Below, in pieces: positions 18,943 through 48,414 of a stretch of DNA of 64,000 bases. This DNA comes from Arbacia lixula (lineage: Eukaryota; Echinodermata; Echinoidea; Arbacioida; Arbaciidae), in contig OZ022585.1 in assembly GCA_963669155.1 (NCBI GenBank), positions 6,233,558-6,297,557 of the forward strand, written 5' to 3'. The translations under genes and the position numbers were made by a program. The notes below the pieces were generated by a model. It was not told where the DNA came from, searched no databases, and saw only the letters and a program-made list of their open reading frames with translations. Within the stretch, counting starts at the first letter, position 1. Each line of letters opens with the position of its first letter.

Positions 18943-19938
18943 CTAGAAATCAAAGATGCAGCGCATCAACTGTGCCGATAGATAGCTATGACCAATAACC
19001 TGAATGAAGTAAACAGAAAATAACGTAAGGCAAACAAGTGTAGCCGAAATAGCCTGTTCCCTAATGCAGTTATTACTGGCTCCGTGCAAATATTCGTGAT
19101 GCTTGAACATGTTTAGTGGGGAAATAGAGGTATCATTATTGATGTTTCCGCCTGAATGGCTTGTTGAAGTAGCTTTAGTGGAAACGCACTCCTCTCGAGG
19201 TATGTCAGTACTGTCCACCGCATTCCCCTGCAACGTGTAATTTTTGTAATCGTCGCACTCTTCAATACTTTTTGATCGATGATAAACAGAAGTACAACAA
19301 ACCGTTGACAACGAATGTCTCATCCAAAATGTATGGATGAAATTGGTTACATTCCTTGTGGGTTCTCGGAATGGAGGAATTCGTTCTCCCTCTTGGTAGC
19401 AATCGATAACCTCATCGATATAACTTCCCTGTCGGGCTGTGCAGACGAGAATATCCCAGCCTTCGACAGGAGATGCGACCTGGTCTGTAGACGGGGCGCA
19501 ATCTGCTCTCCCGGGTGGATAAGTCACATTCAACCTCTTTCGCAATAATCTAATTTGTTTCAGATGACCATCAGAAATTGTAGCATAACATATGTATGTT
19601 CCTTCATCACTTCTCTGTACGTCTTGGATTCTTACAGAAATACGGTACGTATCGCCATCAGCATGATTAGTGACACATTTCACTTTGAATCTTTCTCCCA
19701 CACTGTTAGATACAACGTTACAAACGGACTGCTCACATTGGATGTTACAGAAGGGTGATCTATTTCCCACCGCGATATCGAAAGAGATGTGGGGTTGAAT
19801 CGCATGGGCGAAGTGAAACTCGGCGATCCCTCCTTCGTAGGAGTGATGGATGGAATCAGACGCTGAAGTTAACTTAACTGCAATCCAGAGGAGTTGGCAG
19901 ACCAGCAGCAGAGAAATCAAGCGAATGGTAGAGGCCAT
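18943..19938 (-). CDS. Ig-type surface protein, copy A (intact)
   Basis: A 331-residue protein read from ATG 19938, the start shared with its paralogues (MAST/MATT); an alternative in-frame Met lies six codons upstream. Residues 1-26 are a signal peptide (LISLLLVCQLLWIAV core). Ig-like domain 1 (about 34-137) carries the F-strand signature DEGTYICYA, but the expected B-strand Cys in GGIAEFHF is absent, while extra Cys occur in a CNIQCEQSVC cluster. Ig-like domain 2 (about 143-230) has WDILVC and TVCC as likely B and F strands. A Thr/Ser/Asn-rich stalk with N-glycosylation sequons follows, then a C-terminal hydrophobic segment (SATLVCLTLFSVYFIQVIG). The end (SYLSAQLMRCIFDF) differs from the other copies and abuts poly-C. 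Function is not known; a secreted or GPI/membrane-anchored recognition protein is inferred. Confidence 0.8.
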   Translation of the reverse strand: MASTIRLISLLLVCQLLWIAVKLTSASDSIHHSYEGGIAEFHFAHAIQPHISFDIAVGNRSPFCNIQCEQSVCNVVSNSVGERFKVKCVTNHADGDTYRISVRIQDVQRSDEGTYICYATISDGHLKQIRLLRKRLNVTYPPGRADCAPSTDQVASPVEGWDILVCTARQGSYIDEVIDCYQEGERIPPFREPTRNVTNFIHTFWMRHSLSTVCCTSVYHRSKSIEECDDYKNYTLQGNAVDSTDIPREECVSTKATSTSHSGGNINNDTSISPLNMFKHHEYLHGASNNCIREQAISATLVCLTLFSVYFIQVIGHSYLSAQLMRCIFDF

Positions 19939-20044
19939 CTTTCCTGTTGGACACATATATTTATACAGTACATTGTCTAAGTCATAATAACAAGTTTGAT
20001 CGCAGTAATCATAACAATTATTGTAATGAAATCGTAACAAATAT

Positions 20045-20064
20045 TTCGATCTATAAATGCTGGC
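20045..20064 (-). promoter_or_regulatory. Candidate core promoter of Ig copy A
   Basis: On the minus strand the sequence reads CATTTATAGATCGAAAT, a TATA-like motif about 115 bases upstream of the ATG. The same block is kept 107-121 bases upstream in the other copies: intact TATA-like in F, altered in B, E, C and D. It is a candidate only; no start site can be seen. Confidence 0.3.
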
Positions 20065-20249
20065 AATGTCAACATTCTTCCCCTGACAATCTTTTTGAAT
20101 TTGATCAATGTTTCAATCCACATTATCAACTGAGCTTGATAATTGAACTTAAATGCAACGAATAAAGAATTATTGTTAAGAGCAGTTGCCAGTCGTGAAT
20201 ATCGAGTGGCGGGTTCAAACCTTGTTCAAAGGGATGGATATCCATTTCT

Positions 20250-20846
20250 TTAAAGGTCCCCTGTCTTCAAAATGTATGTCGACTTATATTGATGCAACAT
20301 AATATTTACATAACAAAATCACTAACTGTTCAATGGAAATATGTGCCCTGATAAGCCCCGCCTCCAAAATATCCTCCAACTGAAGATTCCCTATATGACA
20401 TCATCAAAAATGAAAATAAGCAGGATAATAAGCAGAATTTATGCACAAATTAAACATTGCAATGACTACCTCCACATGCCCACAAGAGCATCACATGTCT
20501 TCACGCAATACCATATAACAACCTTTCATGTGGGAATAATCGTTTCCTTATGTCAGAAATGTGCTAGCTATGTGATGCTATTATAAGCACTTGCAGGTAG
20601 TCATTGCAATGTTTAGTTTGTGCATAAATTATGTCTATTATCCTGCTAATTTCTACCTTTGGTGATGCCACAGGGGGAATCTCGAGTTGGAGGATATTTG
20701 GGAGGCGGGGCTTATCTGTGCTGAGAAAAAATATAGAAAAATTATTTTAAAATATAGGACACACATTTCCATTGAACTGTTAGTGATTTTGTCATATACA
20801 TATTAAGTTGCATCAACTGAAGTCAACATACATTTTGATGACAGGG
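20250..20846. mobile_element. TTAA-type long-palindrome MITE, family 1
   Basis: An almost fully palindromic element. The left arm carries TTAAAGGTCCCCTGTCTTCA, then the GATAAGCCCCGCCTCC block and the TGCAATGACTACCTCC block. The right arm carries their reverse complements and ends at CATTTTGATGACAGGG. It sits at a TTAA that is intact in cassettes B and E (ATTTCGTTAAAC near 26015, TTTCTTTAAACG near 44160). The right TTAA is lost with adjoining flank. Other copies: 60020-60580 and 63180-63386. Confidence 0.75.
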
Positions 20847-23800
20847 TGTGCGCTTCCGTTACACTATGCATGCTATGTGTTCATTTTGGGGTGAAAATTT
20901 ATCATAAATTATAATGCAAATCAAGCTGAAAATGACATATCATAAAGTCAAGAGATGTCAATTCGGGTTACTAATGGAAACCCTAAAGCTTGTCCGGGTT
21001 TTGTACGAGTAGTAACAACTAATATATTTGAAGTGCATTCCATCAATAGACCATTTTCGTTATGTATACATTTTTATTCACATCGTTCAAACAATACGTT
21101 ACTAAAGGTAACACGAAACCTTGTCCAAGCTTTGTCCGCGTAGCAACAACTAATAGATTCAGGTTGCGTTCCATCCATTGAAACTAAATCAAGAAATACA
21201 GCTGAATGTAATAACACGTCGCTAGGCAGTTAGGGGAAATTTGAATTCATTACGAAAACGACTAATACATTCAGAATACAACAAAACTTTTTGTATTATA
21301 CCTGTAAACATACTAGCAACTGCGATCACAGTTTCATTAATAATGCGTGATGTTTCTGGCATGTCTGGCAGAAAAGAAGTTGTGGGCTGACACATGTGGT
21401 GCACAGTGTCATTGTTGTGTTCTGAATTAATTTGCTGATACACACATTAGTTTGCCCTCCAAATTTGTTCGGTCAAAATTATACATTTCAAGGATTATTT
21501 CAAGAATGATAATTGGTGAAGTGCCACGAAACCTGCTTGGAAAAGAATTTACATCCCCTGAATTCATGACATATATGTCAATCTCACTTTGATTCGAGTT
21601 GTGATATATGTTTAATTGTTTTTCAAAAGTGTCAACAGTTTGTTTTAACACCTAGTACTATCAGTACGTAAAACTAGGTGGCGAAGGATCAAATGAGTCT
21701 GAAAAGAATCACTCACGATTGGTGCGAGGATTACATGCAGGACGATGTCGTTGCTGCGAAGTAATGGCGAGTCATCAGCTGGTGTGAAACCTGGTACCTA
21801 AAGAATCGTCGTCGTGTTTATCAAGCTATATCATATACCATAACATTTCGCGAGGTTCTTATTTTCTCGAATTTCGCGAGTCGGATGCTATGAAATGAAC
21901 AATGGGAAATAAACATATGGATGCAAATGCCATATGTAGATTTCCCATTGTACAACGTAATTTGTATTATCAGCCACAAACGGTATGATGCTGGCTCATG
22001 AACTTTGAGTATCTTTGTTAAAGGTGATATTCATAGAAGAAATGAAGCTATTCATCTACAGAAAGCTTATAAGCCATACAATGACCTTGGATGACATTCA
22101 GACAATATATCACTTCCGAAAAAGCGAAATTAGGATGAAAACAATCACCCTATTTTCTGGGACAATTTTGCTGTACTGTCATCCGAAACGGCCTTTAGGG
22201 AGGCGTTATTGAGCATCACACATGCTAATCCGCAGCTTCTTTTCCGCCAGAAGCATCATGCATTTTTAATGAAACTGTGATGACAGAGTGGATTAACATT
22301 TGTGTGTAGATTGTAGTTAGTCTCTATAGCTGCGTGAAGCATATCCTGGCTGTGACGTACAAACAAAGCCACTTTCCCTTAGGCGATTTCGTAGGTCAGG
22401 AGAGAGTTAATTTAGTGAAATTTGATTTTCATAAACACAAAACTGAACACTTTCATGGCATGTTAGCTGCATAAATTGCTTTAATAACTCATTAAATTAT
22501 GAAATAATCTATGTGATTTCATTTCCTATCGGTATCGCCTTTAAGAAACAGGTAAGGTGAACGAGACATAGGGGGAAGATACAGAAATTGGGAGGTAGAT
22601 GGAGATGAGGATGCATCAAGAAAGAAACAATATTAGGACAGAAATGTAAATAGAGATGAGGGAAAATTGAGAGAAAGAAAGAGAGAGAGAGATCGGGGGT
22701 AGTATTTCAAAGCATGTTTATAAATGATACATAGATACAAACAGAGATTAAAACATGCTATATCGTAAGAAAATGCCGTTTTATTTTGTGCCCTATTAAG
22801 ATCAATTCCACGGATCCGAATGAATCTCTTTGTATCTTATTACAAACATTACATCGGCACAACATTTGAATGAATTGTCTTTTTATCAAGGCATGAACAT
22901 CAACATCGGTGACTCTAGAAGACGGGAACTACATTAACAAACAAAAGGAGAATGGGAAAAATTATAGCCGACTACCTCTAAATGTTGGGACACGCAGTAA
23001 GCTCTATGGAAAGCCACAACCCAAAGAAGAATAGCCCATTTACAATAGTTATGAAACTCAGCAGAAATCGGCAGATAACTTGTATAACGTCTCACATCAT
23101 AGCTTCACGAACCTCTTGAGGAAAAGACTATAACTGTCTACGTTTGTAATAACCTCTGACGTAGCGACCATTGTCTACATTCATAAATCGCATTGCACCG
23201 TTTAATTCAAGATAATGTGTCCATATAATCATATGTTTTTGGTTTATCTGAATTATATTTTGATATGAGTAAAGACTATAAGATACAGACAAAACATAAT
23301 GCAAGGTTGATGTTAAGCTACCGATGCTGTGTACATTCAGAAATGGTGAATCACCGGTTTTAAATAAAAAACAAAGGTAGCCAAAAAATAAAGTAATAGC
23401 TGGTATGAAAACTTTGGCCCTTTTGCTCAGATTTTACATATTTTTGCTTAAGGAAATCAACAATTGTGTTAAGTACAGCAAATAAATTATTACTCATTCA
23501 CATAGAAAATAATCAGTATTACATATACAAAAACAATGTTACTTCAATAGACTAAAATAGCATATAATCCGTCCCGTATTTTAGATTAGAAACAGCAAAC
23601 TTATATGTCTCTCTTAACTCCTACCTTTCAAATCACAATCACAATCAATAAGCCATTCTCGACTTCCTTTACACATTGTTCGCCAAATCAAAATGTGTTT
23701 CACTTTACACCTTTGTCTGTACAACTTAGACTACATATATTATATTCTAACAAACTGCATAGGCCTACCTAGACCTGTCTCAGAATAGATCAGTGACTAA

Positions 23801-24139
23801 TCCTCATAAAACATTGATTTCAATGTGTTTCTTTACATAACAATGTTCAAATTTCTTTCCTTTATTTCAACATCCCAAGGCCGGTAATTGCAGTGTCTTT
23901 GAATAAGACTAGCCATGCAGTACATACACGCGTCACGTTTTATGTACACTTGGAAACCATGATACCGAGAGTAAAGTCTAATGAATCGTACACCTTGGAC
24001 TCGACGTGATTTATTCAGTCGCGTGATCATGATGAACTGATTCAATGATTGGAGATACTAAAAGTGTCATAGCTGTGATCAGATTGAATGGTCAGATGCT
24101 ACGGTACTCAAAAAGCGTCAATCATTTTAATGCCACCTC

Positions 24140-24386
24140 AAAACGACCTGCGCCATCGCCAGGCTTAAAAGGAAGGGGTACTAGTGGAAAGACCACGGGA
24201 CCCGTAATCAATAGAATGCTTTTCGTCCACGACCACAAGTTCAATTCCTGTGTTGATTCCAGGATATCCGGAGGGGAATCATCTCAAAATTATGACATCG
24301 TTAAATAAAACGAGATTCGAACCCGGTAATGGCGGTACAACGGTTCTGCAATTATTGCGGTCTGTCTGTCTGTCTGTCTGTCTGTC
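24140..24386 (+). repeat. SINE-like block ending in (GTCT)n
   Basis: A block present in several cassettes (30670-30925, 46460-46721, partly 46245-46345 and 63015-63180). It has a tRNA-like look on the plus strand: an A-box-like TAGTGGAAAGACCACG and, about 50 bases on, a B-box-like GAGTTCCATTCC in sister copies. It ends in seven GTCT units here, eight in C's flank and ten in F's. It may be a tRNA-derived SINE amplified along with the cassette; no reference was available. Confidence 0.4.
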
Positions 24387-24546
24387 ATAACGGGCCGTTA
24401 TGAGTTACACCAACTACCCATTCCTTTGTTTTTAATCTTTATGTATCACCTGCATATTTTTTCACCAGAAAGTCACACAAATCCCACAGAGCAATTGATT
24501 GAACTGAACTGAACTCGCGAACTGGTGCAGATTTGTGTACATTCAC

Positions 24547-24712
24547 TTAAAGGGATAGTTCACCCTGAAAGTACTTTGGTTTCAATAAAAGGAGACACGT
24601 GAAAGGAACATATTAGTGTATTTTGAAGAAAATCGGTCAAAGAAAAAGAAAATTATTTAAATTGAAAGTTTTAATTTTGTGATGTCACATGCGAGGTGCT
24701 CCCCCCCCCCCC
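24547..24712. mobile_element. Truncated TTAA MITE (family 3) plus poly-C, beside Ig copy B
   Basis: Left end TTAAAGGGATAGTTCACCCT, colinear with the 17215 copy up to GATGTCACATGCGAGGTGCT. The MITE is then cut by twelve C residues (24701-24712) directly before the Ig copy B region. Confidence 0.8.
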
Positions 24713-24731
24713 TACAAATCAAAGATGCGCA

Positions 24732-25729
24732 TCAATTAAGCCGAAAGCTATGACCAATAACCTGAATGAAGTAAACCGAAAATAAGGTAAGGCAAACAAG
24801 TGTAGCCGAAATATTATGTTCCCTCTTGCAGTTATTACTGGCTCCGTGCAAATAATCGTGATGCGTGAACACATTTAGTGGGGAAATAGAGGTATCGTTA
24901 TTGATGTTTCCGCCTGAAAAATGGCTTGTTGAAGTAGCTTTAGTGGAAACGCAATCCTCTCGAGGTATGTCAATACTGTCCACCGTATTCCCCTGCAACC
25001 TGTAATTTCTGTAATCGTCGCAGTCTTCAATACTTTTTGATCGATTATAAACAGAGATACAACAAAATGTTGACAACGAATTTCTCATCCAAAATGTGTG
25101 TGTGAAATTGGTTGCATTCCTTGTGGGTTGACGGAATGGAGGTATTCGTTGTCCTTCCTGGTAGCAATCGATAACCTCGTCGGCATAACTTCCCTGCCGG
25201 GCTGTGCAGACGAGAATATCCCAGCCTTCGACAGGAGATGCGGCTTGGTCTGTAGACGGGCCGCAATATGCTCTCCCGGGTGGATAAGCCACATTCAACT
25301 TCTTTCGCAATGATTTAATTTTTTTCAGATGACCATCGGAAATTGTAGCATAACATATGTATGTTCCTTCATCACTTCTCCGTACGTCTTGGATTTTAAC
25401 AGAAATACGGAACTTATCGCTATTATCATGATCAGTGACACATTTCACTTCGAATCTTTCCCCCACACTGTTAGATACAACGTTACAAACGGACTGCTCA
25501 CAGTGGATGTTACAGAAGGGTGATCTATTTCCTACCGCGATATCGAAAGAGATGTGTGGTTGAATCGCATGGGCGAAGTGAAACTCGGCGATCCCTCCTT
25601 CGTAGGCGTGATGGATGGAATCAGACGCTGAAGTCAACTTAACTGCAATCCAGAAGAGTTGGCAGACCAGCAGCAGAGAAATCAAGAAATCAAGAAATCA
25701 AGATCAATGAAGTGATCGGTAGAGGCCAT
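24732..25729 (-). pseudogene. Ig-type gene, copy B (start disrupted)
   Basis: The body is open and closely matches copies A and C: both Ig-like domains, the DEGTYICYA signature, stalk and hydrophobic tail ending HSFRLN. The start is broken. From the conserved ATG (25729) a 26-base insertion made of the octamer ATTTCTTG puts a TGA after 15 codons. In the frame of the body there is another TGA and no ATG before the signal-peptide core ISLLLVCQLFWIAV. A frame opening at 25685 begins with TTG, not ATG. Unless an upstream exon supplies a new start, no signal peptide can be made. The rest shows no stop, so the lesion is probably recent. Confidence 0.75.
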
Positions 25730-26643: not shown

Positions 26644-26664
26644 GGGGGGGGGGAGGGAGGGGGA
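26644..26664 (-). repeat. G-rich tract
   Basis: A G-run with two A interruptions on the plus strand, the only long tract of this kind in the window with G rather than C on that strand. Confidence 0.9.
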
Positions 26665-26888
26665 GGCGTGTTATAGGTCTTTTAGATGGGCGCTGCACAA
26701 TGACGTCATAGAATCATGATTCAAATCACGGTTGCGTTCAAGAGACCTTTCTCGACCGTGATTCTGTAGAATCACCTTTATATTCAATATCGACTGAACG
26801 CAATTGTGATTCTGCAGAAACATGTTTTGAATCATGACTCACGGGCAAAAACGTGGCGCATGAACGCGACCTAAAAGTAACCCCAAAC

Positions 26889-27611
26889 CAGGGTTGTGTT
26901 AGGAAGGAGGGACAACACGAGCATAATATATTCAAACATCTGTATGGATACTAAAGCGTGCTAATGAATGTCAAAAGCATTTCACAATCACTACAATGCT
27001 TTGATGTCCCATGCGCGGCACCGACATTTAGCTGCTGTCAACTTGGAAAGCAATATCTTTGATTCACTGTTTTGTCTCTGGAAGCTATGTTTCTTATCAT
27101 ATTTTTGTGCAAATTTCAAAAAGTTACAGGCAACACCACTAAAGATCCTGTACTCGGTTTTCTTCTAAATGATTGTTGAATGATGCATGAACGGAGATAT
27201 AAGATAATATTCTTACTTACACAATTAACAAATTTCTTCACTTTCCACAGATTTCCGCTAACGTGGGATTAAATCATTATCAAAATTATATCTTAAGCTG
27301 TTTATTTTCATCAACAGAGTTTGTGTGCATTTGCGTGCAACTGAGATATTTAAGTAGAAAAAAAATGTTTATTTTTGTTCGCTGATATCTCTTTTCCTCA
27401 CAAAAGTATTGATGTAATCCAACAGAGCTGGACAAGCGAAATAAGACTCTACATTTCTTTTGTTCTATCTGAGAAACCGTTGTTACGCAATCCTGTTCGC
27501 TATCATTAAAACCCCTGAAAAGCACATGCTGAGAAGACTTTTTTTTCGGCGGTGCCACGCATGGGTTCAAAGAAAGAAAGTTGTTTCATATCCTTCCATA
27601 ACACATCCCCG
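26889..27611 (-). mobile_element. CAGGGATG element with 7-bp duplication, copy 1
   Basis: Ends CAGGGTTGTGTTAGGAAGGA and AACACATCCCCG are inverted repeats. The element is flanked by CCCAAAC on both sides (26882-26888 and 27612-27618). The uninterrupted site, CCCCAAACCTTGTCCGAG, is present at about 53712 in a paralogous cassette, so the boundaries are secure. 723 bp, no intact transposase. Orientation is opposite to the 50723 copy. Confidence 0.85.
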
Positions 27612-28157
27612 CCCAAACCTTGTCCGAGTAGCAACAACTAATAGATTCAGGTTGCGTTTCACCCATTGAAACTGAATCACGAAATACAGCTAAATGTAAT
27701 ATCACGTCACTCGGCAGTTAGGGGAAATTTTGAATGCATTACGAAAACAGCTAATTCATTCAGAACACAACGATGACCATTGTGTATGATACCTGTCAAT
27801 CTACTACCAACTTCCAGCACAGTTGCATTAGTAATGCATGATGCTTCTGGCAGAAAATAAGTTCTGGGCTGACATATGCGGTGCACAATGGCATTGTTGT
27901 GTTCTGAATCAATTTGCTGATATACACATTATTTTGAGGTCCAAATTTGATCGGGAGTCAAAATCTCATTATATATTTCAAGGATTATTTCAAAAATGAT
28001 AATTGGTGGAATGCGAAATGCCATGAAACCTGCTTCGAAAAGAATTGATATCCATTGACTTCATGATTATGTCAATCTCAGCTTCATTCGAGTTGTGATA
28101 TATTTTTAATCGTTTTTTAAAGGTGTCAGCAGTTTGTTTTAACACATAGTACTATCA

Positions 28158-28407
28158 GTACGTGAAACTAGCTGGCGAAGGATCAAATCAAATGAGTCTG
28201 AAAAGAATCACTCACGATCGGTGCGAAGAATAAATGCAGGACGATGTCGTTGCTGCGTACGTAAAACTAGTTGGTGAAGGATCAAATAAGTCTGAAAAGA
28301 ATCACTCACGCTCGGTGCGAGGAATAAATGCAGGACGATGTCGTTGCTGCGTGCGTAAAACTAGTTGGCGAAGGATTAAAAAAGTCTGAAAAGAATCACT
28401 CACGATC
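28158..28407 (+). repeat. Tandem triplication, about 97-bp unit
   Basis: The unit beginning GTACGTGAAACTAGCTGGCG occurs at 28158, 28257 and 28351, each with TCTGAAAAGAATCACTCACG and a GGACGATGTCGTTGCTGC end; the third unit is partial. Other cassettes (21665, 44610, 54985) have the unit once, so it expanded only in this cassette. Confidence 0.85.
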
Positions 28408-30893
28408 GGATGCTATTCGCGAATTTAACAACACGCAAAAACATGAATACGACGTTTACGAGCACATATGCTAATAGTACCATGAGTACTAGTACTCCAC
28501 GATCGCGAAAAGGCACCAATAGTGGTCAATTATACTCCCGAAACATATGACGTATATACCGTATATGAAATGAACAATGAGAATTAAACATATGATGCAA
28601 AACCAGTGCCTTATGGCACATGTATGGAGAATTCCGATTGTACAACGTATTGTATTACCAGCCACAAACGGTAAAATGCTGATTCATGAACTTTCAGTGG
28701 ACATACGTATCTTTGTTAAAGGCGATATTCATAGAAGAAATGAAGATATTTATCTACAGAAAGCTTATAAGCCATACAATGAGCTTGGATGACATTCAAA
28801 CAACATATATGTATCACTTCCGAAAAAGCGAAATTAGGGAGAAAATAATCACCCTTTTTTCTGGGACAAATTTGCCCTACTATCATCCGAAACGGCCTTT
28901 AGGTTTGACGTAAGAAAAGGGAGGCGTTATTGTGCATCACACATGCTAATCCGCAGCTTCTTTTCCGCCAGAAACATCATGCATTATTAATGAAACTGTT
29001 ATGACAAAGTGGATTAACATTTGTGTGTAGATTGCAGTTAGTCTCTATAGCTGCGTGAAGCATATCCTGGCTGTGACGTACACAGAAAGCCACTCTCCCT
29101 TAGGCGATTTCGTAGGTCAGGAGAGAGTTGATTTAGTGAAATTTGATTTTCATAAAACACGAAACTGAACACTTTCATTGCATGTTAGCTGCATAATTTG
29201 CTGTAATAACTCACTCAATTATGAAATAAACTATATTTATTTGATTTTATTTCCTATAAGTATCACCTTTAAGAAACAGGAAAGGGGAAAGAGACAGAGG
29301 GGGAAGAGACATAAATTGGGAGGTAGATGGAGACGGGAATGCATCAAGAAAGAAACAATACTAGGACAGAAAGGTAAATAGAGATGAGGGAAATTGAGAG
29401 ACAGACAGAGAGAGAGAGAGAGTGAGAGGGGGTAGTATTTCAAAGCATGTTAATACATGATACATAGATACTAACAGAGATTAAAACATGCTATATCGTT
29501 AGCAAATGCCGTTTTATTTTGTGCCCTATTAAGATCAATTCCACGGATCCGAATAAATCTCTTTGTATCTTATTACAAGCAGTACATCGGCACAACAATT
29601 GAATGAATTTTCTTTTTATCAAGGCATGAACATCAACACCGGTGACTTTATAAGACGGGAACTACATAAAAAAAGGAGAATGGGAAAAGTTATAGCCGAT
29701 TACCTCTAAGTGTTGGGACACGCAGTAAGCTCTATGGAGAGCCACAACCCAAAGAAAGAGTAGCCCATTTGCAATAGTTATGAAACTCAGCAGAAATTGG
29801 CCGATAACTTGTATAACATCTCACATCATAGCTTCACGAACTATTTGAGGAAAAGACTACAACTGTCTACTTTTGAAATATCGTATGTCGTAGCGATCAT
29901 GGTCTACATTTATAAATCGCATTGCACCGCTCCGCTCGCGATGTCTAATTCAAGATAATGTTTCCATATAGTCATAGGGTTTTAGTTTATCTGAATTACA
30001 TTTTGATATGAGTAAAGACGACAAGATACAGACTAAACATATTGCAATTAGGTTGATGTTAAGCTACCGATGCTGTGTAAATCTAGAGATAGTGAATCAC
30101 CGGTTTTAAATCTAAAACAAAGGTAACCAAAAATAAATTAATAGATGGTATGAAAACGTTTTGCACAGATTTTACATATTTTTGTTTAAGGAAACCAACA
30201 ATTGTGTTAAGTACAGCAAATACTCATTCACATAGAAAATAATCAGTATTACATATGCAACAACAATGTTAGTTCAATAGACTATAATAGCATATAATCC
30301 TTGCCGTATTTTAGATTAGAAACATCAAACTTATATGTCTCTCTTAACTCCTACCTTTCAAATCACAATCACAATCATAGTCAATAAGCCATTTTCGACT
30401 TCCTTTACATATTGTCCGCCAAATCAAACTGTCTTTCAATTTACGCCTCTGTCTGTACAACTATACATACATTATATTATTTAAAAAAAAATGCATAGGC
30501 GTACCTAGACCTGTTTCAGAATAGATCAGTAACTAGTCATCCTTACGAAACAATAATTTCAATGTGTATCTATATATGTCATTCTTCACATTTCTTTGTT
30601 TTATTACAACATTCCAAGGGCGGTACTCACAAAGCGCCAGTCATTATTTTTAATGCCACTTAAATATGTTAAAAACGACCTGCGAAATCGCCAGGCTTTA
30701 AAGTAAAGGGTAGTAGTGGAACCCGTAATGGGACCCGTAATAAAAAAAAAATGCCTTTCTTCTACGACCACAAATCCCATTCTTGTTTTATTTCAGGATA
30801 TCCAGAGGGGAATCTTCTCAAATTGATAACATCGTTAAATAAAACGAGATTCGAACTCGGTAATGGCGGTACTACGGTTTTGAAATTATTGCG

Positions 30894-30925
<32 letters not shown>

Positions 30926-31250: not shown

Positions 31251-31284
31251 GCCCCCTAGAAATCAAAGATGCGCATCAATCATG

Positions 31285-32259
31285 TCAATTAAGCCGAAAG
31301 CTATGACCAATAACCTGAATGAAGTAAACCGAAAATAAGGTAAGGCAAACAAGTGTAGCAGAAATATTATGTTCCCTTTTGCAGTTATTACTGGCTCCGT
31401 GCAAATAATCGTCAAGCGTGAACACATTTAGTAGGGAAATAGAGGTATCGTTATTGATGTTTCCGCCTGAAAAATGGCTTGTTGAAGTAGCTTTAGTGGA
31501 AACGCACTCCTCTCGAGGTATGTCAATACTGTCCACCGCATTCCCCTGCAACCTGTAATTTCTGTAATCGTCGCACTCTTCAATACTCTTTGATCGATGA
31601 TATACAGAGGTACAACAAACCGTTGATGACGAATTTCTCATCCAAAATGTGTGAGTGAAATTAGTTGCATTCCTTGTTGGTTCACGGAATGGAGGAATTC
31701 GTTCTCCTTCCTGGTAGCAATCGATAACCTCATCGATATAACTTCCCTGTCGGGCTGTGCAGACGAGAATCTCCCAGCCTTTGACAGGAGATGCGATCTG
31801 GTCTGTAGACGGGACGCAATCTGCTCTCCCGGGTGGATAAATCACATTCAACCTCTTTCGCAATAATCTAATTTGTTTGAGATGACCATCGGAAATTGTG
31901 TCATAACATATGTATGATCCTTCATCACTTCTCAGTACGTCTTGGATTTTTACAGAAATACGGTACTTATTGCTATCAGCATGATCAGTGACACATTTCA
32001 CTTTGAATCTTTCCCCCACACTGTTAGATACAACGTTACAAACGGACTGCTCACAGTGGATGTTGCAGAAGGGCGATCTATTTCCCAATGCGATATCGAA
32101 AGAGATGTGTGTTTGAATCGCATGGGCAAAGTGAAACTCGGCGATCCCTCCTTCGTAGGCGTGATGGATGGAATCAGACGCTGAAGTAAACTTTACCGCA
32201 ATCCAGAGGAGTTGGCAGGCCAGCAGAAGAGAAATCAAGTGATTGGTAGTGGCCATCAT
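31285..32259 (-). CDS. Ig-type surface protein, copy C (intact)
   Basis: A 324-residue open frame from the tandem Met pair at 32259 (MMATTNH). The reading frame stays open 36 codons upstream, but that part is not conserved in A, B or F, so the MMATT start is preferred. Signal peptide core LISLLLACQLLWIAV; domain 1 with DEGSYICYD at the F strand (Asp in place of the usual Ala); domain 2 with WEILVC and TVCC; N-glycosylation sequons at GNRS, RNAT, NFT and INNDTS; a stalk; and the tail HNISATLVCLTLFSVYFIQVIG, followed by only HSFRLN. That short tail fits a GPI-attachment signal better than a signalling receptor. Upstream sequence is paralogous to that of copy D. Confidence 0.8.
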   Translation of the reverse strand: MMATTNHLISLLLACQLLWIAVKFTSASDSIHHAYEGGIAEFHFAHAIQTHISFDIALGNRSPFCNIHCEQSVCNVVSNSVGERFKVKCVTDHADSNKYRISVKIQDVLRSDEGSYICYDTISDGHLKQIRLLRKRLNVIYPPGRADCVPSTDQIASPVKGWEILVCTARQGSYIDEVIDCYQEGERIPPFREPTRNATNFTHTFWMRNSSSTVCCTSVYHRSKSIEECDDYRNYRLQGNAVDSIDIPREECVSTKATSTSHFSGGNINNDTSISLLNVFTLDDYLHGASNNCKREHNISATLVCLTLFSVYFIQVIGHSFRLN

Positions 32260-34598: not shown

Positions 34599-35353
34599 GT
34601 CTCGCCCACCGGAGGTGAAGGCGAGACTAAGGGATCCAAATGGCGTCCGTCCGTCGTCCGTCCGTCGTCCGTCCGTCGTCCGTCGTCCGTCACAAATGTT
34701 ATTGTGCTGTAAGAGGTCACATGATAAGGTCAAAGGTCATTTGAGGTCATACGTTAAAGTTTACCTGCAAGACTCTCTTTTGACAAATAACTTCACATGG
34801 GTTGCTTGGATTACAACCTAACTTGGGTCATAGATGCACTGGGGGTACCTTCATGTTATGGTGCCGTTGGAGGTCACAGGATAAGGTCAAAGGTCATTTG
34901 AGGTCATACGTTAAAGTTTACCTGCAAGACTCTCTTTTGACAAATAACTTCACATAGGTTGCTTGGATTACAACCTAACTTCGATCATAGATGCACTGGG
35001 GTACCTTCATGTTATGGTACCGTTGGAGGTCACAGGATAAGGTCAAAGGTCATTTGAGGTCATACGTTAAAGTTTACTTGCAAGACTCTCTTATCACACA
35101 TAACTCATCACATGTTGCTACAATGGCAATCAAACTTGGATGATGGATGCACTGGGGGCACCTGCATGTTATTGTGCTGTAAGAGGTCACATGATAAGGT
35201 CAAAGGTCATTTGAGGTCATACATTAAAGTTTACTTGCAAGACTCTTAATGAAGGCTTCCTAACTTGTGCACAGAATTGTGTGAGGGATACAATTCTTTT
35301 GCGTAGCAACGGAGATCGCGATCTTTCTGGTTATTTTCGCAAGTGGGCGAGAC
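34599..35353. mobile_element. Non-autonomous element with GTCTCGCCCAC ends
   Basis: Perfect 11-bp inverted ends, GTCTCGCCCAC (34599-34609) and GTGGGCGAGAC (35343-35353). After the left end come GGAGGTGAAGGCGAGAC, a short GTCCGTCC repeat and a four-unit minisatellite. The paralogous locus near 38866-38890 (GGGTGGTATCGATTTT then TATACAGAGATCTC) lacks the element, supporting a discrete insertion. Exact outer borders may extend some bases beyond the 11-mers. No ORF of interest. Confidence 0.7.
34700..35250 (+). repeat. About 157-bp minisatellite with AGGTCA clusters
   Basis: Four units with period 156-157. Each holds AGGTCA, about 7-8 bases, AGGTCAAAGGTCA, four bases, AGGTCA. The DR1 cores are at 34727-34739, 34884-34896, 35040-35052 and 35197-35209. 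AGGTCA direct repeats with 1-base spacing are the classic half-site arrangement bound by RXR/HNF4-type nuclear receptors. Confidence 0.85.
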
Positions 35354-36770: not shown

Positions 36771-36774
36771 AGTG

Positions 36775-37435
36775 CTTGCCGCCGCAAATAGAGAACAAGA
36801 AGAATACGGAAGTCATGACGGATGAAATCTTAGTAGAAGAAAGGAGGAGCAGAAAAATAAAAATTAAGCCGAATATGACAGGAGACAACCCTCAGCAACA
36901 TGCAAGAAAGCCAAGGAACAATGGCTCGAGGAAAAATGCAAGGAAACTGAGGATCTAGACAAACTACAAATGCTTTACACAAGAAAGTGAAAAAAAAAAC
37001 TCACCAACATGAATAAGCAGAATGTGACAGGTGGGTGCGTAAAAAATTTAGACTCCTGAAATCTCAGCAGTTGTGAGGACAGAACACGGGCTGTCAAAAG
37101 ATTTCAGACAAGGAAGGAAATAAGGCAGGGATGTGTACTGTCACCGAATCTATTCAACCTATACACGGAGAGGATATTCAGAGATATTGACGACATTAAA
37201 GGAATGAGTGTCGGTGGAGTCAACATCAACAATCTGAGATATGCAGACGACACAGTCTTGTAGCTGAAAGTAGTGACAACATACAACGATTAATAAATGC
37301 AGTTTATAATAAAGGATCTACATATGGAATGGAAATTAATGTGACCAAGACAAAATCAATGACAGTAAGTAAGCGGAATGTATTACCACACAACACCATT
37401 AATATAGGCAATAGAACCATTGACCAAGTTCAATT
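36775..37435 (+). pseudogene. RTE-clade LINE fragment with internal deletion
   Basis: Decayed pieces of a LINE ORF: EEIDDLDK-type linker remnants at 36776-37040, then a jump at 37066 into the RT core. There, QGCVLSPNLFNLYTER (about 37125-37170) and INNLRYADDTVL (about 37225-37262) are clear before a TAG. Those RT motifs match the RTE/BovB group. Compared with the copy at 39.78-42.15 kb, everything between CTCAGCA and GCAGTTGTGA is missing. It ends within 10 bases of the Ig copy D stop codon. Confidence 0.7.
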
Positions 37436-38325
37436 GAGCAGAAAGGTATGACCAATAAACTGAATGAAATAAACCGAAATAACTGTAAGGCAAACAAGTG
37501 TTTCGCTAATGCAGTTATCACTGGCTCCGTTCAAAAAATCAGGGTACTGGACCACATTTACTGGGGAAATAGACGTATCGTGATTAATGTTTAATGTATT
37601 TACCTCCGACCTGTACTTCTCATAATCGTCGCAATCTTCAATACTCTTTGATTGATGATAAACAGACGAACAACAAACCGTTGACGATGAATTTCTCATC
37701 CAAAATGTGTGGGTGAAATTGTTCGCATTTCTTGTTGGTTCACGGAATGGAGGAATTCGTTCTCCTTCCTGGGAGCAATCGATAACCTCATCGATATAAC
37801 TTTCGTGCCGGGCTGTGCAGACGAGAATATCCCAGCCTTCCACAGGAGATGCGATCTGGTCTGTAGACGGGGCGCAATCTGCTCTCCCGGGTGGATAAGT
37901 CACATTCAACCTCTTTCGCAATAATTTAAATGTTTTCAGAAGGCCATCAACGTAACGTAACGTAACGTAACACATATATGCACCTTCATCACTTCTTCGT
38001 AAGTCTTGGATTTTTATAGAAATGCGATACTTCATAATATCGCCATCAGCATGATAAGTGACACATTTCACATTGAATCTTTCCCCAACCCTGTTAAGTA
38101 CAACGCTACAAATGGACTGCTCACAGTGGATGTTAAAGGAGGGTGATTTCCCACCGCGATATCGAAAGAGATGTTTGGTTGAATCGCATGGGCAAAGTGA
38201 AACTCGGCGATCCCTCCTTCGTAGGCGTGATGGATGGAATCAGACGCTGAAATAAACTTTACCGCAATCCAAAGGACTTGACAGGCCAGCAGAAGAGAAA
38301 TCAAGTAATTGGTAGTGGCCATCAT
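37430..38325 (-). pseudogene. Ig-type gene, copy D (frameshifted, deleted)
   Basis: From the conserved MM start (38325) the signal peptide and the beginning of domain 1 are readable as far as IAVGN. A 4-base deletion (TAGA on the sense strand, near 38144-38150, relative to copy E) then shifts the frame and ends it at 38068. The original frame resumes from about 38071 to 37430 with DEGAYMCYVT, domain 2 (WDILVC, TVCC) and the tail. A run of the 5-mer ACGTA (37951-37974) has changed the G-strand region to CYVTLRYVDG, and about 70 bases of stalk (the DIPREECVSTKATS region) are lost in frame. The antigen-like domains are otherwise intact, so inactivation is probably recent. Confidence 0.8.
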
Positions 38326-42150: not shown

Positions 42151-42158
42151 GAGAAAGT

Positions 42159-42170
42159 CCCCCCCCCCCC
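42159..42170 (+). repeat. Poly-C tract
   Basis: Twelve C residues at the junction of the RTE LINE remnant and the palindromic CCTAAGCAAAATA MITE. Confidence 0.95.
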
Positions 42171-42171
42171 T

Positions 42172-42867
42172 TCCCCTAAGCAAAATAACATAACATTTTT
42201 ATCAAAGAGGTTTTGGGCAAAATAATTAAGCAGGGTTGATCCTTAACGTATTGACTAACTTCTGTATGAAAATCACATTAATCCAATTATTCATGCATGA
42301 GTGGGCAACTTTTAAAGGCAAATATGTCACTTTTCAAAAGTCACAAGGGTAATTGTTTCTGCCGTTTTAACAACACATTTTGGCATTTCTTGTGCGATTT
42401 TTCAAATGTTTTCACTCAACCGTGACAGGAAAATGACTTCTTATGTTTACATAAGAGGTCATGATACATCTCTGTCAAAATATTTTTTTTCACCAAAATA
42501 AAGGGTTTTTAAAAGTTTTAAACTCAAGAAGGATAAGTATTTGTTAAACGGTGCTCACTCAACCAGAACAATGTCGGGATAGGTGTTGGTGCATCAAGAG
42601 ATTGGTGATAAGCATTGGGAGGACATAAATTATGCACCAGAAATGGAATTCATCAAAAATTCATATGACAGAATTCCCAAATTACCCTTGTCACTTTGGA
42701 AAAAAAAACATTTTAGCCTTTTTTATTTGCCCACTCATGCATGACTAATTGGATTAATGTGATTATCACACAGAAGTTATTCAATAAGTTAAGGAGCAAT
42801 CCTGTCATTTTATTTTGCCCAAAACCCCTTCGATAAAAAGTTGTGCTATTTTGCTTAGGAGGGGGAG
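42172..42867. mobile_element. Long-palindrome MITE with CCTAAGCAAAATA ends
   Basis: The left end CCCCTAAGCAAAATAACATA mirrors the right end CTATTTTGCTTAGGAGGGGG. Internal landmarks also pair: GTTTTGGGCAAAATAATTAA against TTATTTTGCCCAAAACCCC, and AAAATCACATTAATCCAATT against AATTGGATTAATGTGATTAT. Further copies are partial at 44275-44420 and 49895-50570. No coding capacity. Confidence 0.75.
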
Positions 42868-42869
42868 GC

Positions 42870-43862
42870 TTACATTTTTGTTGTGTTTAGTTCAGTTGAA
42901 CAGAAAGGATGACCAATAACGTGAATTAAATAAACCCACAATGTAAAGCAAACAAGTGTAGCTGAAAGAGTCTGTTCCCTATTGCAGTTATTACTGGCTC
43001 CGTACAAATAATCAGGGGGCTGGACCACATTAAGTGGGAAAATAGAGGTATCGTTATTAATGTTTCCGCCAGAAAAATGGCTTGTTGAAGTCGCTTTAGT
43101 TGAAACACACTCCTCTCGAGGTATGTCCATACTGTCAATCGCATTCACTTCCAACCTGTTATCTTCATAATCGTTACAATCTTCAATACTCTTTGATCGA
43201 TGATAGACAGAGGAACAACAAACCGTTGACAACGAATTTCTCATCCAAAATGTGTGGGTGAAATTGGTTGCATTCCTTGTTGGTTCACGGAATGGAGGAA
43301 TTCGTTCTCCTTCCTGGTAGCAATCGATTACCTCATCGATGTAACTTCCCTGTCTGGCTGTGCAGACGAGAATATCCCAGCCTTCCACAGGAGATGCGAC
43401 CTGGTCTGTAGACGGGCAGCAATCGGCTCTCCCGGGTGGATAAGCCACATTCAACCGCTTTCGCAATAATCTGATGTTTTTCAGATGACCATCGGAAATT
43501 GTAGCATAACATATGTATGTTCCTTCATCACTTCTCCGTACGTCTTGGATTTTTACAGAAATACAGTACTTATCGCTATTAGCATGATTAGTGACACATT
43601 TCACTTTGAATCTTTCTCCCACACTGTTAGATACAATGTTACAAACGGACTGCTCACAGTGGATGTTACAGAAGGGTGATCTATTTCCCACCGCGATATC
43701 GAAAGAGATGTTTGGTTGAATCGCATGGACGAAGTGAAACTCGGCGATCCCTCCTTCATAGGCGTGATGGATGGAATCAGACGCTGAAGTAAAGTGATCT
43801 GCAATCCAGAGGAGTTGGCAGACCAGCAGAAGAGAAATCGAGTGGTTGGTAGAGGCCATCAT
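42870..43862 (-). CDS. Ig-type surface protein, copy E (intact)
   Basis: A 330-residue frame from the MM pair at 43862. Signal peptide 1-27. Ig-like domain 1 about 35-139: the usual B-strand Cys is replaced in GGIAEFHF; there is a Cys cluster at 65, 69, 74 and 89; Cys100 is unique to this copy (YCISVKIQ); the F strand is DEGTYICYA (112-120). Domain 2 about 145-230: Cys148 and Cys149 (this copy alone has CC here), WDILVC (162-167), Cys181, TVCC (213-216), Cys229. Stalk 231-297 with N-glycosylation sequons. Hydrophobic tail 298-317, then an unusual end (PFCSTELNTTKM). Its 3' side abuts a palindromic MITE rather than poly-C plus MITE family 3. A secreted or anchored recognition protein is inferred; binding partner unknown. 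Confidence 0.8.
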   Translation of the reverse strand: MMASTNHSISLLLVCQLLWIADHFTSASDSIHHAYEGGIAEFHFVHAIQPNISFDIAVGNRSPFCNIHCEQSVCNIVSNSVGERFKVKCVTNHANSDKYCISVKIQDVRRSDEGTYICYATISDGHLKNIRLLRKRLNVAYPPGRADCCPSTDQVASPVEGWDILVCTARQGSYIDEVIDCYQEGERIPPFREPTRNATNFTHTFWMRNSLSTVCCSSVYHRSKSIEDCNDYEDNRLEVNAIDSMDIPREECVSTKATSTSHFSGGNINNDTSIFPLNVVQPPDYLYGASNNCNREQTLSATLVCFTLWVYLIHVIGHPFCSTELNTTKM

Positions 43863-43962
43863 TCCTGTTGGGCATATATATAGAGTACATTGCCTAAGTC
43901 ATAATAACAATTTTCATCGCAGTAATTATTACAATTATTGTAATAGATTCGTAACTAATATT

Positions 43963-43979
43963 TCGCTCTATGAATGCTG
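43963..43979 (-). promoter_or_regulatory. Position-conserved block upstream of Ig copy E
   Basis: Minus strand CATTCATAGAGCGAAAT, about 107 bases before the ATG. It aligns with the TATA-like block of copies A and F but has CATAGA, a weaker match. Candidate core promoter only. Confidence 0.25.
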
Positions 43980-43989
43980 GCAATGTCCA

Positions 43990-46680
43990 CATTTTCTTTC
44001 TCTGATAATCTTTTTGAATTGGATCAATAAATCAATAAACATTATCAAATGAACTTGATAATTGAAATGAAATGCTGTAAATAAATAATTATTGTTAAGA
44101 GCATCTACCAGTCATGACAATTGAGTGGTGGATTGAAACCTTTAAGGTATGGGTATTCATTTCTTTAAACGTCTTTGATTGCACACACTGTTTGCGCTCC
44201 CGTTATACTATGAATTCATTTTTTTTATTTGTGAAAATTAATGTAAACACAACAAAAAAAATAAGTCAGCCCTCCTCCCTAAGCAAAATAGCATAACTTT
44301 TTATCGAAGAGGTTTTGGGCAAAACAATTTAGCAGGATTGTTCTTTAACTTGTTGACTAACTGATGTGTGAAAATCACATTAATTCAATTAGTCATGCGT
44401 GAGTGAGCAAATCTTAAAGTCAAAATCTCATTCAATATTCCAAAGATTATTTCAAGAATGGTAATTGGTGAAGTGCCACGAAACCTGCTTCGAAAAGAAT
44501 CGACATCCCCTGACTTTATGTCAATCTCACTTTAATTCGACTTTTGATATATTTGTAATCGTTTTTTCAAAGTGTCAACAGTTTTTTTTTAACAAATAGA
44601 ACTATCAGTACGTAAAACTAGCTGGTGAATGATCAAACGAGTCTGAAAAGAATCACTCACGATCGGTGCGAGGATTGCGTGCAGGACGATGTCGTTGCTG
44701 CGATGTAATGGCTGGTCATCGGCTGGTGTGAAACCTGAATCTTCGTTATGTTCATCAAGCTACGTATGTGTAAAGCTTGCCGTTGTTAAGGCACGCTGAG
44801 GGGATCCAGAAGTACGCGAACAAGTAAACACATGGATGCAAACTCAATGCCATATGTAGAATTCCCATTGTACAAAGTATTGTATTGTATTGCCAGCCAC
44901 ATGAACTTTGAGTTGACTGAACTATATCTTTGTTAAGAAACAGAAAAGGGGAAGAGAGACAGAGGGGAAAGAGACATATATTGTGAGGTAGACGGAGACA
45001 GGGTTACATGAAGAAAGAAAAAATATTAAAACAGAAAGATAAAAAGAGATCAGGTGAAATTGAAAGAGAGAGAGGTCAATTCCACGGATCCGAATGAATC
45101 TCTTTGTATCCTATCACAAACAGTACATCGGCACAACAATTGAATTAATTGTCTTTTTATCAAGGCAAGAACAGCAACACCGGTGACTCTATAAGACGGG
45201 AACTTCATAAACAACAAAAAAAAGGAGAATGGGAAAAGTTATAACCGACTACCTCTAAATGTTGGGACACGCAATGAGCTCTATGGAAAGCCACAACCCA
45301 AATAAGAGTAGCTCATTTGCAATAGTTATGAAACTCAGCAGAAATCGGCAGATAACTTGTTTAACATCTCACATCATAGCTTTACGAACCTTTTGAGGAA
45401 AAGACTGTAACTGTCTACGTTTGAAATATCCTCTGTCGTAGCGACCATGGTCTACATTCATAAATCGCATTGCACCGCTCCGCTCGCGATGTCTAATTCA
45501 AGATATTGTTTCCATAGTCATAGGTTTTTGGTTTATCTGAGTTACATGCTAATATGGGTAAAGACTACAAGATACAGAATAAACGTAATGCAAGGTTGAT
45601 GTTAAGGTACCGATGCTGTGTAAATCTAGAAATAGTGAATCGCCGGTTTTAAATCTAAAACAAAGGTAACCAAATAATAAAGTAATAGCTGGTATGAAAA
45701 ACTTTTGCTCAGATTTTACATATTTTTGCTTAAGGAAACCAACAAAACCAACAATTGTGTTAAGTACAGCAAATGAATTATTACTCATTCACATAGAAAA
45801 TAATCAGTATTACATATTCAATAATAATGTTGCTTCATTAGACTATAATAGCATATAATCCTTCCCGTATTTTAGATTAGAAACATCAAACTTATACGTC
45901 TCTCTTAACTCCTACCTTTCAAATCACAATTACAATCATAACCAATAAGACATTCAAGACTTCCTTTGCGCATTGTTCACCAAATCAAACTGTGTTTCAC
46001 TTTTCACCTCTGTCTGTACAACTTAGACTACATATATCATATTCTAACAATCTGCATAGGCCTACCTAGACCTGTCTCAGAATAGATCAGTAACTAGTCC
46101 TCCTTACGAAACAATAATTTCAATGTGTATCTATATATATCAATCTTCACATTTCTTTGTTTTATTACAACATTCCAAGGCCGGTACTCAAAAAGCGCCA
46201 ATCATTATTTTTAATGCCACTTAAATATGTTAAAAACGATCTGCGAAATCGCCAGGCTTTAAAGTAAGGGCAGTAGTGGAAAGACCACGGGACCCGTAAT
46301 CAAAAGAATGCCTTTCTTTCACGACCACGAGTTCCATTCATGTTTGATTTCAGGATATTCCTTTACACATTGTTCACCAAATCAAACGGTGTTTCACTTT
46401 ACACCTTTGTCTGTACAACTTAGACTTTATATATTATATTCTAACAAATTGCATAGGCTTCAAAACGACCTGCGCCATCGCCAGGCTTTAAGGTAAGGTG
46501 TAGTAGTGGAAAGACCACGGGACTCGCAATCAATAGAATGCTTTTCTATCACGACCACGAGCTCCATTCCTGTTTGATTTCAGGATATCCAGAGGGGAAT
46601 CGTCTCAAAATGATAACATCGTTAAATAAAACGAGATTCGAACTCGGTAATGGCGGTACAACGGTTCTGCAATTATTGCG

Positions 46681-46720
<40 letters not shown>

Positions 46721-46880
46721 TAACGGGCCATTATGAGTTACACCAACTACCCATTCTTTTTTTTTTAATCTTTATGTATCACCTGCATGTTTTTTCACCA
46801 GAAAGTCACACAAATCCCATAGAGCAATTGAATTGAACTGAATTGAACTCGCGAACTGATGCAGATTTGTGTACATTCAC
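43990..46880. repeat. Cassette flank E (between copies E and F)
   Basis: No gene. A shortened version of flanks A and B: a CCTAAGCAAAATA MITE part (44275-44420), the ACTATCAGTACGT block (44600), the CCACGGATCCGAATGAAT block (45083), the CCTACCTAGACCTGTCTC block (46062), a partial and a full SINE-like block (46245-46345, 46460-46721) and ten GTCT units. It lacks the CAACAACTAATAGATTCAGG block. Confidence 0.75.
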
Positions 46881-47044
46881 TTAAAGGGATAGTTCACCCT
46901 GAAATTACTTTGGTTTCAATAAAAGGAGACACGTGAAAGGAACATATTAGTGTATTTTTAAGAAAATCGGTAAAAGAAAAAGAAAATTATTTAAATTGAA
47001 AGTTTGAATTTTGTGATGTCACATGCGAGGTGCCCCCCCCCCCC
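46881..47044. mobile_element. Truncated TTAA MITE (family 3) plus poly-C, beside Ig copy F
   Basis: Same left end and same cut point as beside copies B and C; poly-C at 47033-47044. Confidence 0.8.
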
Positions 47045-47063
47045 TAAAAATCCAAGATGCGCA

Positions 47064-48414
47064 TCAATTAAGCCGAAAGCTATGACCAATAACCTGAATG
47101 AAGTAAACCGAAAATAAGGTAAGGCAAACAAGTGTAGCCGAAATATTATGTTCCCTCTTGCAGTTATTACTGGCTCCGTGCAAATAATCGTAATGCGTGA
47201 ACACATTTAGTGGGGAAATAGAGGTATCGTTATTGATGTTTCCGCCTGAAAAATGGCTTGTTGAAGTAGCTTTAGTGGAAACGCAATCCTCTCGAGGTAT
47301 GTCAATACTGTCCACCGCATTCCCCTGCAACCTGTAATTTCTGTAATCGTCGCACTCTTCAATACTCTTTGATCGATGATATACAGAGGTACAACAAACC
47401 GTTGACAACGAATTTCTCATCCAAAATGTGTGGGTGAAATTGGTTGCATTCCTTGTTGGTTCACGGAATGGAGGAATTCGTTCTCCTTCCTGGTAGCAAT
47501 CGATAACCTCGTCGACATAACTTCCCTGCCGGGCTGTGCAGACGAGAATATCCCAGCCTTCGACAGGAGATGCGGCTTGGTCTGTAGACGGGCCGCAATA
47601 TGCTCTCCCGGGTGGATAAGCAACATTCAACCTCTTTCGCAAGGATCTAATTTTTTTCAGATGACCATCGGAAATTGTAGCATAACATATGTATGTTCCT
47701 TCATCACTTCTCCGTACGTCTTGGATTTTTACAGAAATACGGTACTTATTGCTATTATCATGATCAGTGACACATTTCACTTCGAATCTTTCCCCCACAC
47801 TGTTAAATACAACGTTACAAACGGACTGCTCACAGTGGATGTTACAGAAGGGTGATCTATTTCCTACTGTTATGTGGATATTACCCATTCAGCACATTTA
47901 CGCCAAAACAAAGTTAGGACTCACACATTCAGCACATTTATGCCAAAACAAAGTTATCAATCTGTCAAGCCCACGAGGTCATTAAACAGACTCCCTCTCT
48001 TTTGGGCAAGCCCCACCGAGGTCATGATAACAGACCCCCCTCTTTGGAGAGGACATTAAGAGTCTCTCTGTTTATCATCAGTCACCTTATTAAGGTCACG
48101 AAGGGAAAGTCGCTGGGGTGTAAAAGGAAACAACTCAGTAGACCAGGGGTCTTTTAGCTGCTGCTCTCTGACCTGAGCAGACAGGTTTTCTGAAGCAATC
48201 TTGTCTTCAATATATAGTTATTGCTCCTGTTCTCGATTGTCTCATATTGAAACATATTCGAGATGTGTGGTTGAATCGCATGGGCGAAGTGAAACTCGGC
48301 GATCCCTCCTTCGTAGGCGTAATGGATGGAATCAGACGCTGAAGTAAACTTAACTGCAATCCAGGAGAGTTGGCAGACCAGCAGCAGAGAAATGAAGTGA
48401 TCGGTAGAGGCCAT
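47064..48414 (-). pseudogene. Ig-type gene, copy F (split by insertion)
   Basis: From the conserved ATG (48414) the signal peptide and the start of domain 1 are readable to IQPHIS, then the frame enters a 392-base foreign segment and stops at 48154. Beyond the segment the body is open to 47064: Cys cluster, DEGTYICYA, domain 2, stalk, and tail ending HSFRLN. It is nearly identical in sequence to copy B in the stalk and tail. I tested whether the segment could be an intron: an AG lies at its 3' side, but the only nearby donor-like GT would leave the junction out of frame, so splicing is unlikely to rescue it. The TATA-like upstream block is retained (48528-48545). Confidence 0.75.
47868..48259. 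mobile_element. Insertion inside Ig copy F, unclassified
   Basis: Placed by comparison with copy B: sequence matches to TTTCCTAC and resumes at GAGATGTGTGGTTG, while about 18 bases of the original (from CGCGATATCG) are replaced. A 387-bp part begins TG and ends CA like a solo LTR, but I found no target-site duplication. The left end holds a tandem duplication of a roughly 38-base unit (CATTCAGCACATTTAYGCC). Confidence 0.55.

Follow-up and report, generated by a model that had tools for sequence, protein, structure and literature searches.

Introduction

Several described gene systems resemble, each in part, the family presented here. The kirrelL gene of echinoderms is intron-free and encodes an immunoglobulin (Ig)-domain surface protein, and retrotransposition has been raised as its possible origin (PMC8903837). 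The Sp185/333 immune genes of sea urchins are described as lying in tandem segmental duplications of one orientation (4.2-4.6 kb), with microsatellites at the units (PMC5103432). The VCBPs of amphioxus have two Ig-type domains and clustered genes, for which pseudogenes and copy-number variation are reported (PMC2632668), and the Alr family of Hydractinia consists of clustered recognition genes of the immunoglobulin superfamily (IgSF) with unusual V-set and I-set domains (PMC11999971). In the present study, a stretch of 64,000 nucleotides from the sea urchin Arbacia lixula (contig OZ022585.1, positions 6,233,558 to 6,297,557; assembly GCA_963669155.1), called the window below, was analysed and found to hold six copies of one gene for Ig-type proteins (Table 1). 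The family looks like a typical young tandem family and a genuine member of the IgSF. Our favoured reading, held with somewhat more confidence than doubt, is a young tandem family of IgSF genes with an uninterrupted coding part, whose intact copies encode surface proteins that are probably anchored by glycosylphosphatidylinositol (GPI) and bind a partner.

Table 1. Position and state of the gene copies and associated features in the window (aa, amino acids).
Feature	Position	Strand	State or basis
Copy A	18943..19938	-	Intact, 331 aa, open from ATG to stop
Copy B	24732..25729	-	Broken; start frame lost
Copy C	31285..32259	-	Intact, 324 aa; mosaic
Copy D	37430..38325	-	Broken by frameshift
Copy E	42870..43862	-	Intact, 330 aa; extra Cys at residues 100, 149 and 321
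Copy F	47064..48414	-	Broken; pieces 48260-48414 (first) and 47064-47867 (rest)
Foreign stretch in copy F	47868..48259	.	Insertion or replacement of about 390 bp with stop codons and a 43-bp tandem repeat
First Ig domain of copy E	43440..43781	-	V-set-like, residues 28-141; Pfam and PDB profile search
Second Ig-like domain of copy E	43161..43451	-	Residues 138-234; predicted model and Foldseek
Downstream flank of unit B	22798..24305	.	Duplicated at 29531-30839 (C) and at 45073-46358 and 46460-46626 (F)

Results

Layout of the array and state of the copies

A tblastn search of the whole window with copy E gave six loci at E <= 1e-22, the next match having an E of 0.54. As the initial annotation had claimed, all six are same-strand copies of one gene, on the minus strand within 18943-48414 and with an uninterrupted coding part; neighbouring copies are regularly spaced, at 4.2-6.6 kb. 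Copies A, C and E, which had been called intact, indeed have frames running from ATG to stop, and the other three are broken. Copy B carries a 26-bp insertion of 8-bp repeats in the leader and its ATG (25729) is out of frame with the rest, the ATG frame closing after 15 codons and 317 codons being open from 25685. In copy D a 4-bp deletion, located between 38148 and 38147, closes the ATG frame after 85 codons, and the stalk has lost 72 bp in frame. The signal peptide described earlier is recognisable as a hydrophobic leader in A, C and E, lies upstream of the break in D and F, and is out of frame with the ATG in B. To judge from these reading frames, three members look functional. A run of 12-21 G immediately past the stop codon is present in A, B, C and F (18900-18940 for A) and absent from D and E.

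It may also be asked whether each copy is only an exon that codes for the extracellular portion of a bigger receptor with several domains. An example would be an Ig-NACHT receptor such as AjNLRC4 of the sea cucumber Apostichopus japonicus, for which two extracellular Ig-type domains, a membrane segment and a NACHT domain are described (PMC8699970). This exon reading is very improbable, as every copy ends in its own stop codon after a hydrophobic stretch, the Pfam scan of A, B, C and E gave no NACHT match, and the longest stop-to-stop frame outside the genes between 14000 and 49500 has 125 aa (98 frames of at least 60 aa were listed). The sole donor-like CAG-GT near the C-terminus, located by eye, occurs in A, B, C and F and not in D or E. 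AjNLRC4 is likened by description, and spliced downstream exons are still conceivable.

Growth of the array

Matches that span the near flank through the gene are 91-95% alike, and the likeness is 86-89% for flank matches of 1.1-2.1 kb downstream of B, C and F. When measured in 150-column windows, with F compared without its insert, copy C matches B at 96-97% identity and F at 95-99% over a stretch that begins near codon 225 and takes in 400 bp of the 3' flank, and its 5' flank is 43-61% identical to B/F, the C-B match ending at the ATG. An 86% match between C and D reaches about 480 bp upstream of the ATG of C; over the 5' flank the window table gives 87%, 41% and 73% for this pair, the alignment being uneven there. 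Copy C is thus a mosaic, with a B/F-like 3' part and 3' flank and a D-related 5' flank. Since the flanks are duplicated with the genes and copy C is mosaic, the array can be taken to have grown by duplication and recombination of units as DNA. The birth-and-death mode suggested for this locus is supported by the duplicated flanks, the mosaic copy and the broken state of half of the copies. The founding gene may itself have been a retrocopy, and an untranslated upstream exon is possible.

Microsatellites of GTCT stand in the downstream flanks of B (24360-24386, 6.8 units), C (30894-30925, 8 units) and F (46681-46720, 10 units), and a 157-bp tandem repeat with 3.5 copies lies at 34696-35246. At 61496-63184 the downstream flank of the array unit recurs in diverged form (75-88% in pieces), and the window has no gene match next to it; this may be an older unit or else a repeat. 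The reading of 61.5-63.7 kb as an 'empty' seventh unit that would prove a gene insertion site was rejected, because the upstream-flank match sits in an element with inverted ends (48975-49302), which makes the layout uninformative.

Ig domains of the encoded proteins

The two Ig-like domains of the initial annotation were recovered by different routes, the first from sequence comparison and the second only through a model of moderate confidence. In the Pfam scan of the whole proteins, V-set was matched in all four of the copies scanned, with E of 1.2e-5 (A), 5.2e-6 (B), 0.0019 (C) and 4.6e-5 (E); A and B passed the curated cut-off of the Pfam 'ig' family. The isolated first domain also matched V-set in 4 of 4 copies (best E 2.3e-6). 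When a profile of the four first domains was compared with PDB, pIgR was the best match (whole-chain E 1.8e-6), followed by other IgSF chains. By these matches the first domain can be assigned to the Ig type. The first domain of A, B, C, E and F keeps five cysteines, an odd count. Of those in copy E, C69, C74 and C118 (F strand) are aligned with cysteines of pIgR, whose B-strand Cys falls opposite Ile56. A canonical B-F disulfide and a C-strand Trp are usual in Ig domains and not obligatory; the canonical pattern is absent here, Ile56 occupying the place of the B-strand Cys.

For the second domain, no Pfam family was found in any of the six copies at E 10, and its profile matched only TAF1 in PDB, at E 0.32 or worse, which was taken as chance. 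The AlphaFold2 model built from the six copies has six strands, with a predicted local distance difference test (pLDDT) score of 72.5 and a predicted template modelling (pTM) score of 0.66. All 50 Foldseek rows shown for this model are entries with antibody, Fc or T-cell-receptor chains, at probabilities of 0.77-1.00. An Ig fold is supported for the second domain with moderate confidence from this model, and the subtype is left aside, because no match reached E 0.001 and PDB is rich in antibodies. Six cysteines are kept in this domain in all six copies; with the strands read by eye, C167 and C215/216 are candidate B/F cysteines, and Cys181 stands at the expected place of the Trp. Structure prediction of the copies was informative for the second domain, at moderate confidence, and failed for the full-length protein. 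With the same reserve about domain 2, the family is a member of the immunoglobulin superfamily.

Stalk, cysteines and C-terminal end

The description of the stalk as glycosylated proved overstated, as each stalk has 0-2 N-glycosylation sequons and a Ser/Thr content of 17-21%; 21 of the 32 sequons in the six frames are within the Ig domains. The gained cysteines of copy E were borne out at residues 100 and 149, and the third extra one is at residue 321. Further cysteines are kept in the stalk (one, not in D), before the hydrophobic stretch (one) and inside it (one).

Gly-Ala-Ser (residues 288-290 of E) is invariant in all six copies and is followed by a spacer of 7-10 residues and then by a hydrophobic 18-mer, whose mean Kyte-Doolittle value is 1.7-2.0 across the copies. 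The hydrophobic C-terminal tail noted before is thus an 18-residue stretch with 4-15 residues after it, among which there is at most one K/R. The number of these residues differs through small indels: six in B, C and F, four in D, 14 in E and 15 in A, where a 4-bp indel near the end gives a different C-terminus. By its sequence pattern and hydrophobicity this end is plausibly a GPI signal, and a GPI anchor is judged most likely because free variation beyond a conserved hydrophobic stretch agrees with a signal that is removed from the protein.

On the other hand, the length of the hydrophobic stretch would suffice for a membrane span with 4-15 residues beyond it, and the products could be short-tailed type I transmembrane proteins that serve adhesion in development or in a tissue, much as the single-exon kirrelL does, an intron-free IgSF gene in echinoderms (PMC8903837). 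This is a tentative possibility, which would have to accommodate the lack of a basic stop-transfer cluster and the variation in sequence and length after the stretch; moreover, kirrelL is likened by description and the word 'tandem' is absent from the text of PMC8903837.

Selection and variation among the copies

The ratio of nonsynonymous to synonymous changes (dN/dS) by the Nei-Gojobori method was 0.39 among A, C and E (95% bootstrap 0.29-0.50). By part, it was 0.81 in the leader, 0.46 in the first domain (0.22-1.06), 0.19 in the second domain (0.08-0.41), 0.46 in the stalk (0.24-0.94) and 0.34 in the end (upper bound open). A codon model on A, B, C, E and F, whose tree is violated by recombination between copies, gave a dN/dS of 0.45, with twice the log-likelihood difference (2dlnL) being 22.6 against a ratio of 1. 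The same model on A, C and E alone gave 0.42 (2dlnL 20.6), with 0.62 in the first domain (2dlnL 1.5) and 0.24 in the second (15.4). No stop is found in A, C and E, against about five expected from 148 changes (3.3-3.6% each; Poisson chance about 0.007). The family bears the mark of purifying selection. Neutral drift of all the copies does not agree with the values below 1 obtained both for the intact three and for the five copies.

All pairwise dN/dS values, with the broken copies included, lie between 0.38 and 0.57, and those of the intact pairs between 0.38 and 0.41. Because pairs with broken copies give the same dN/dS as intact ones, either the breaks are recent or the selection signal is inherited, and much of the measured constraint predates the breaks. 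This likeness, together with the loss of three of the six frames, would suit a decaying array. All the copies would then be young pseudogenes of a functional gene that lies elsewhere, or duplicates of it without expression, and their low dN/dS would be inherited. We consider this improbable, as no stop has arisen in about 330 codons of each of A, C and E after 73-119 pairwise changes, and the second-domain dN/dS among them is 0.19-0.24.

The locus had also been called fast-evolving. In the sense of diversifying selection this finds no support, since dN/dS is 0.39-0.45 and a positively selected site class adds nothing over five copies (M2a against M1a, 2dlnL 0.001), a comparison of low power. 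The residue differences among A, C and E do fall in both Ig domains, as stated earlier, but they are denser per residue in the stalk and after the hydrophobic stretch; differing positions number 19 of 114 in the first domain, 12 of 93 in the second and 21 of 67 in the stalk. A concentration of variation in the Ig domains was rejected on these per-residue counts. Within the first domain, replacement changes crowd at residues 92-100, where 6 of 9 positions differ in A, C and E (a level reached in 457 of 10000 shuffles), and 8 of 9 are changed when B is added (reached in 29 of 10000 shuffles); the scan took the best window, and the test with A, C and E only is marginal.

This crowding can be read as the mark of diversifying selection on receptors for immunity or allorecognition, whose variable binding site would be the loop between strands D and E of the first domain. 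The first-domain dN/dS, indistinguishable from 1 by the codon model (2dlnL 1.53) as by the bootstrap range, points the same way, and loci of this kind typically form tandem arrays that recombine and contain broken copies. We nevertheless regard this explanation as unlikely, as dN/dS is far below 1 for the whole gene and for the second domain and the site test detected no positively selected class in its five sequences, with the low power already mentioned. The D-E loop was assigned by eye, and the crowding is a best-window result that is marginal in the intact copies alone.

Other features of the window

A frame of the long interspersed nuclear element (LINE) type, with endonuclease and reverse transcriptase, lies at 1528-5016 on the plus strand; its N-terminus is a hydrophobic leader, after which comes a 2A-like motif with NPGP at its end. 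PMC4981915 reports 2A-like motifs in LINEs of several groups and, as N-terminal signal sequences, in NLRs of sea urchins. A rhodopsin-family receptor of 428 aa with a long N-terminus is encoded in a single open frame at 6877-8163 on the minus strand, its best solved relatives being opioid, cholecystokinin and adrenergic receptors. The LINE, this receptor and the Ig genes would by themselves mark the DNA as animal and probably invertebrate. A repeat family of about 720 bp, in both orientations and with several copies close together, was found at 26884-27622, 50712-53740 and 57586-59260. Over the whole window, Rfam at gathering scores and the tRNA scan each gave no match, and seven further frames of the window showed nothing at the curated Pfam cut-off.

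Discussion

In the reading that we favour, an intact gene would give rise to a glycoprotein of the secretory pathway whose leader is cleaved off. Two Ig domains would follow, the V-type one lying farther from the membrane, then a short stalk and finally a hydrophobic signal at the C-terminus. This signal would most likely be exchanged for a GPI anchor, placing the protein on the outer cell surface without a signalling tail. Binding of a partner, which may be on other cells, in solution or on microbes, would occur most likely via the first Ig domain, and the protein could serve in adhesion or recognition, signalling by way of its partner or by clustering. The array would have grown by unequal crossing-over of units of about 6 kb, with reshuffling and pruning still going on. 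We infer the GPI anchor, the partner binding and any recognition role from features of the predicted proteins; an immune role is possible as a conjecture.

Several observations weigh against this picture. Among the four whole proteins, only B passed the curated V-set cut-off, the Pfam matches being near it and covering mainly the D-F part of the first domain, and the best single domain of the pIgR match is weak (i-Evalue 0.038). Among the Foldseek rows shown for the second domain the best E is 0.013, with TM scores of 0.41-0.56, and antibodies are abundant in PDB. Profiles of domains 1 and 2 of this family gave no match to each other, and the full-length model is poor (pLDDT 40). In the 5' window from -354 to -204, copy C is no closer to D (41%) than to B. 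The agreement in dN/dS between broken and intact copies implies that the constraint may be partly inherited. The polar residues past the hydrophobic stretch exceed those of many GPI signals, and a short-tailed membrane protein is a possible alternative to the GPI form.

A more elaborate version, namely a lineage-specific, intron-free family of GPI-anchored recognition proteins with two Ig domains, in which the V-type domain lacks the canonical B-strand Cys, the disulfides are rewired round a pIgR-like extra Cys pair, the D-E loop diversifies from one tandem copy to another and the units are reshuffled by crossing-over, seems to us doubtful in its entirety. With the selection tests, the strongest argument for an immune locus in rapid diversification falls away, though such a locus is still conceivable.

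Scans with the family alignment gave 152 pattern matches in IMG/VR and 74 in prokaryote genomes, none of them a relative, and phage records gave no match; animal DNA would be present in these collections at most as contamination, and these negatives carry little weight. Among the papers listed in searches of the open-access literature on Ig families, no description of this family was found, which is weak evidence of absence.

In comparison with the known systems, the products of Sp185/333 are not Ig proteins, and Alr1 and Alr2, compared by description, are multi-exon transmembrane receptors with cytoplasmic tails, unlike the proteins predicted here. Vertebrate pIgR-type V domains are the best PDB match of the first domain, with cysteines partly paired and a weak overall match. 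VCBPs carry a chitin-binding domain after two V domains; no chitin-binding Pfam match was obtained in A, B, C and E and the second domain has no Pfam Ig match, which separates the family from the VCBPs. The Drosophila Dpr/DIP proteins are likewise small IgSF surface proteins, some of them GPI-anchored (PMC10863630), and copy E weakly matches one DIP, among other sequences (E 0.0037); the likeness concerns protein type. Pseudogenes are described as almost absent from the Sp185/333 clusters (PMC5103432), whereas three of six copies are broken here. KirrelL, again compared by description, is transmembrane and needed for skeletogenic cell fusion, and its account in PMC8903837 mentions no tandem array. 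If expressed, the present family would be an addition to the clustered recognition-type genes of invertebrates, as an IgSF array that is intron-free and probably GPI-anchored, and its mosaic copy C illustrates how such arrays reshuffle.

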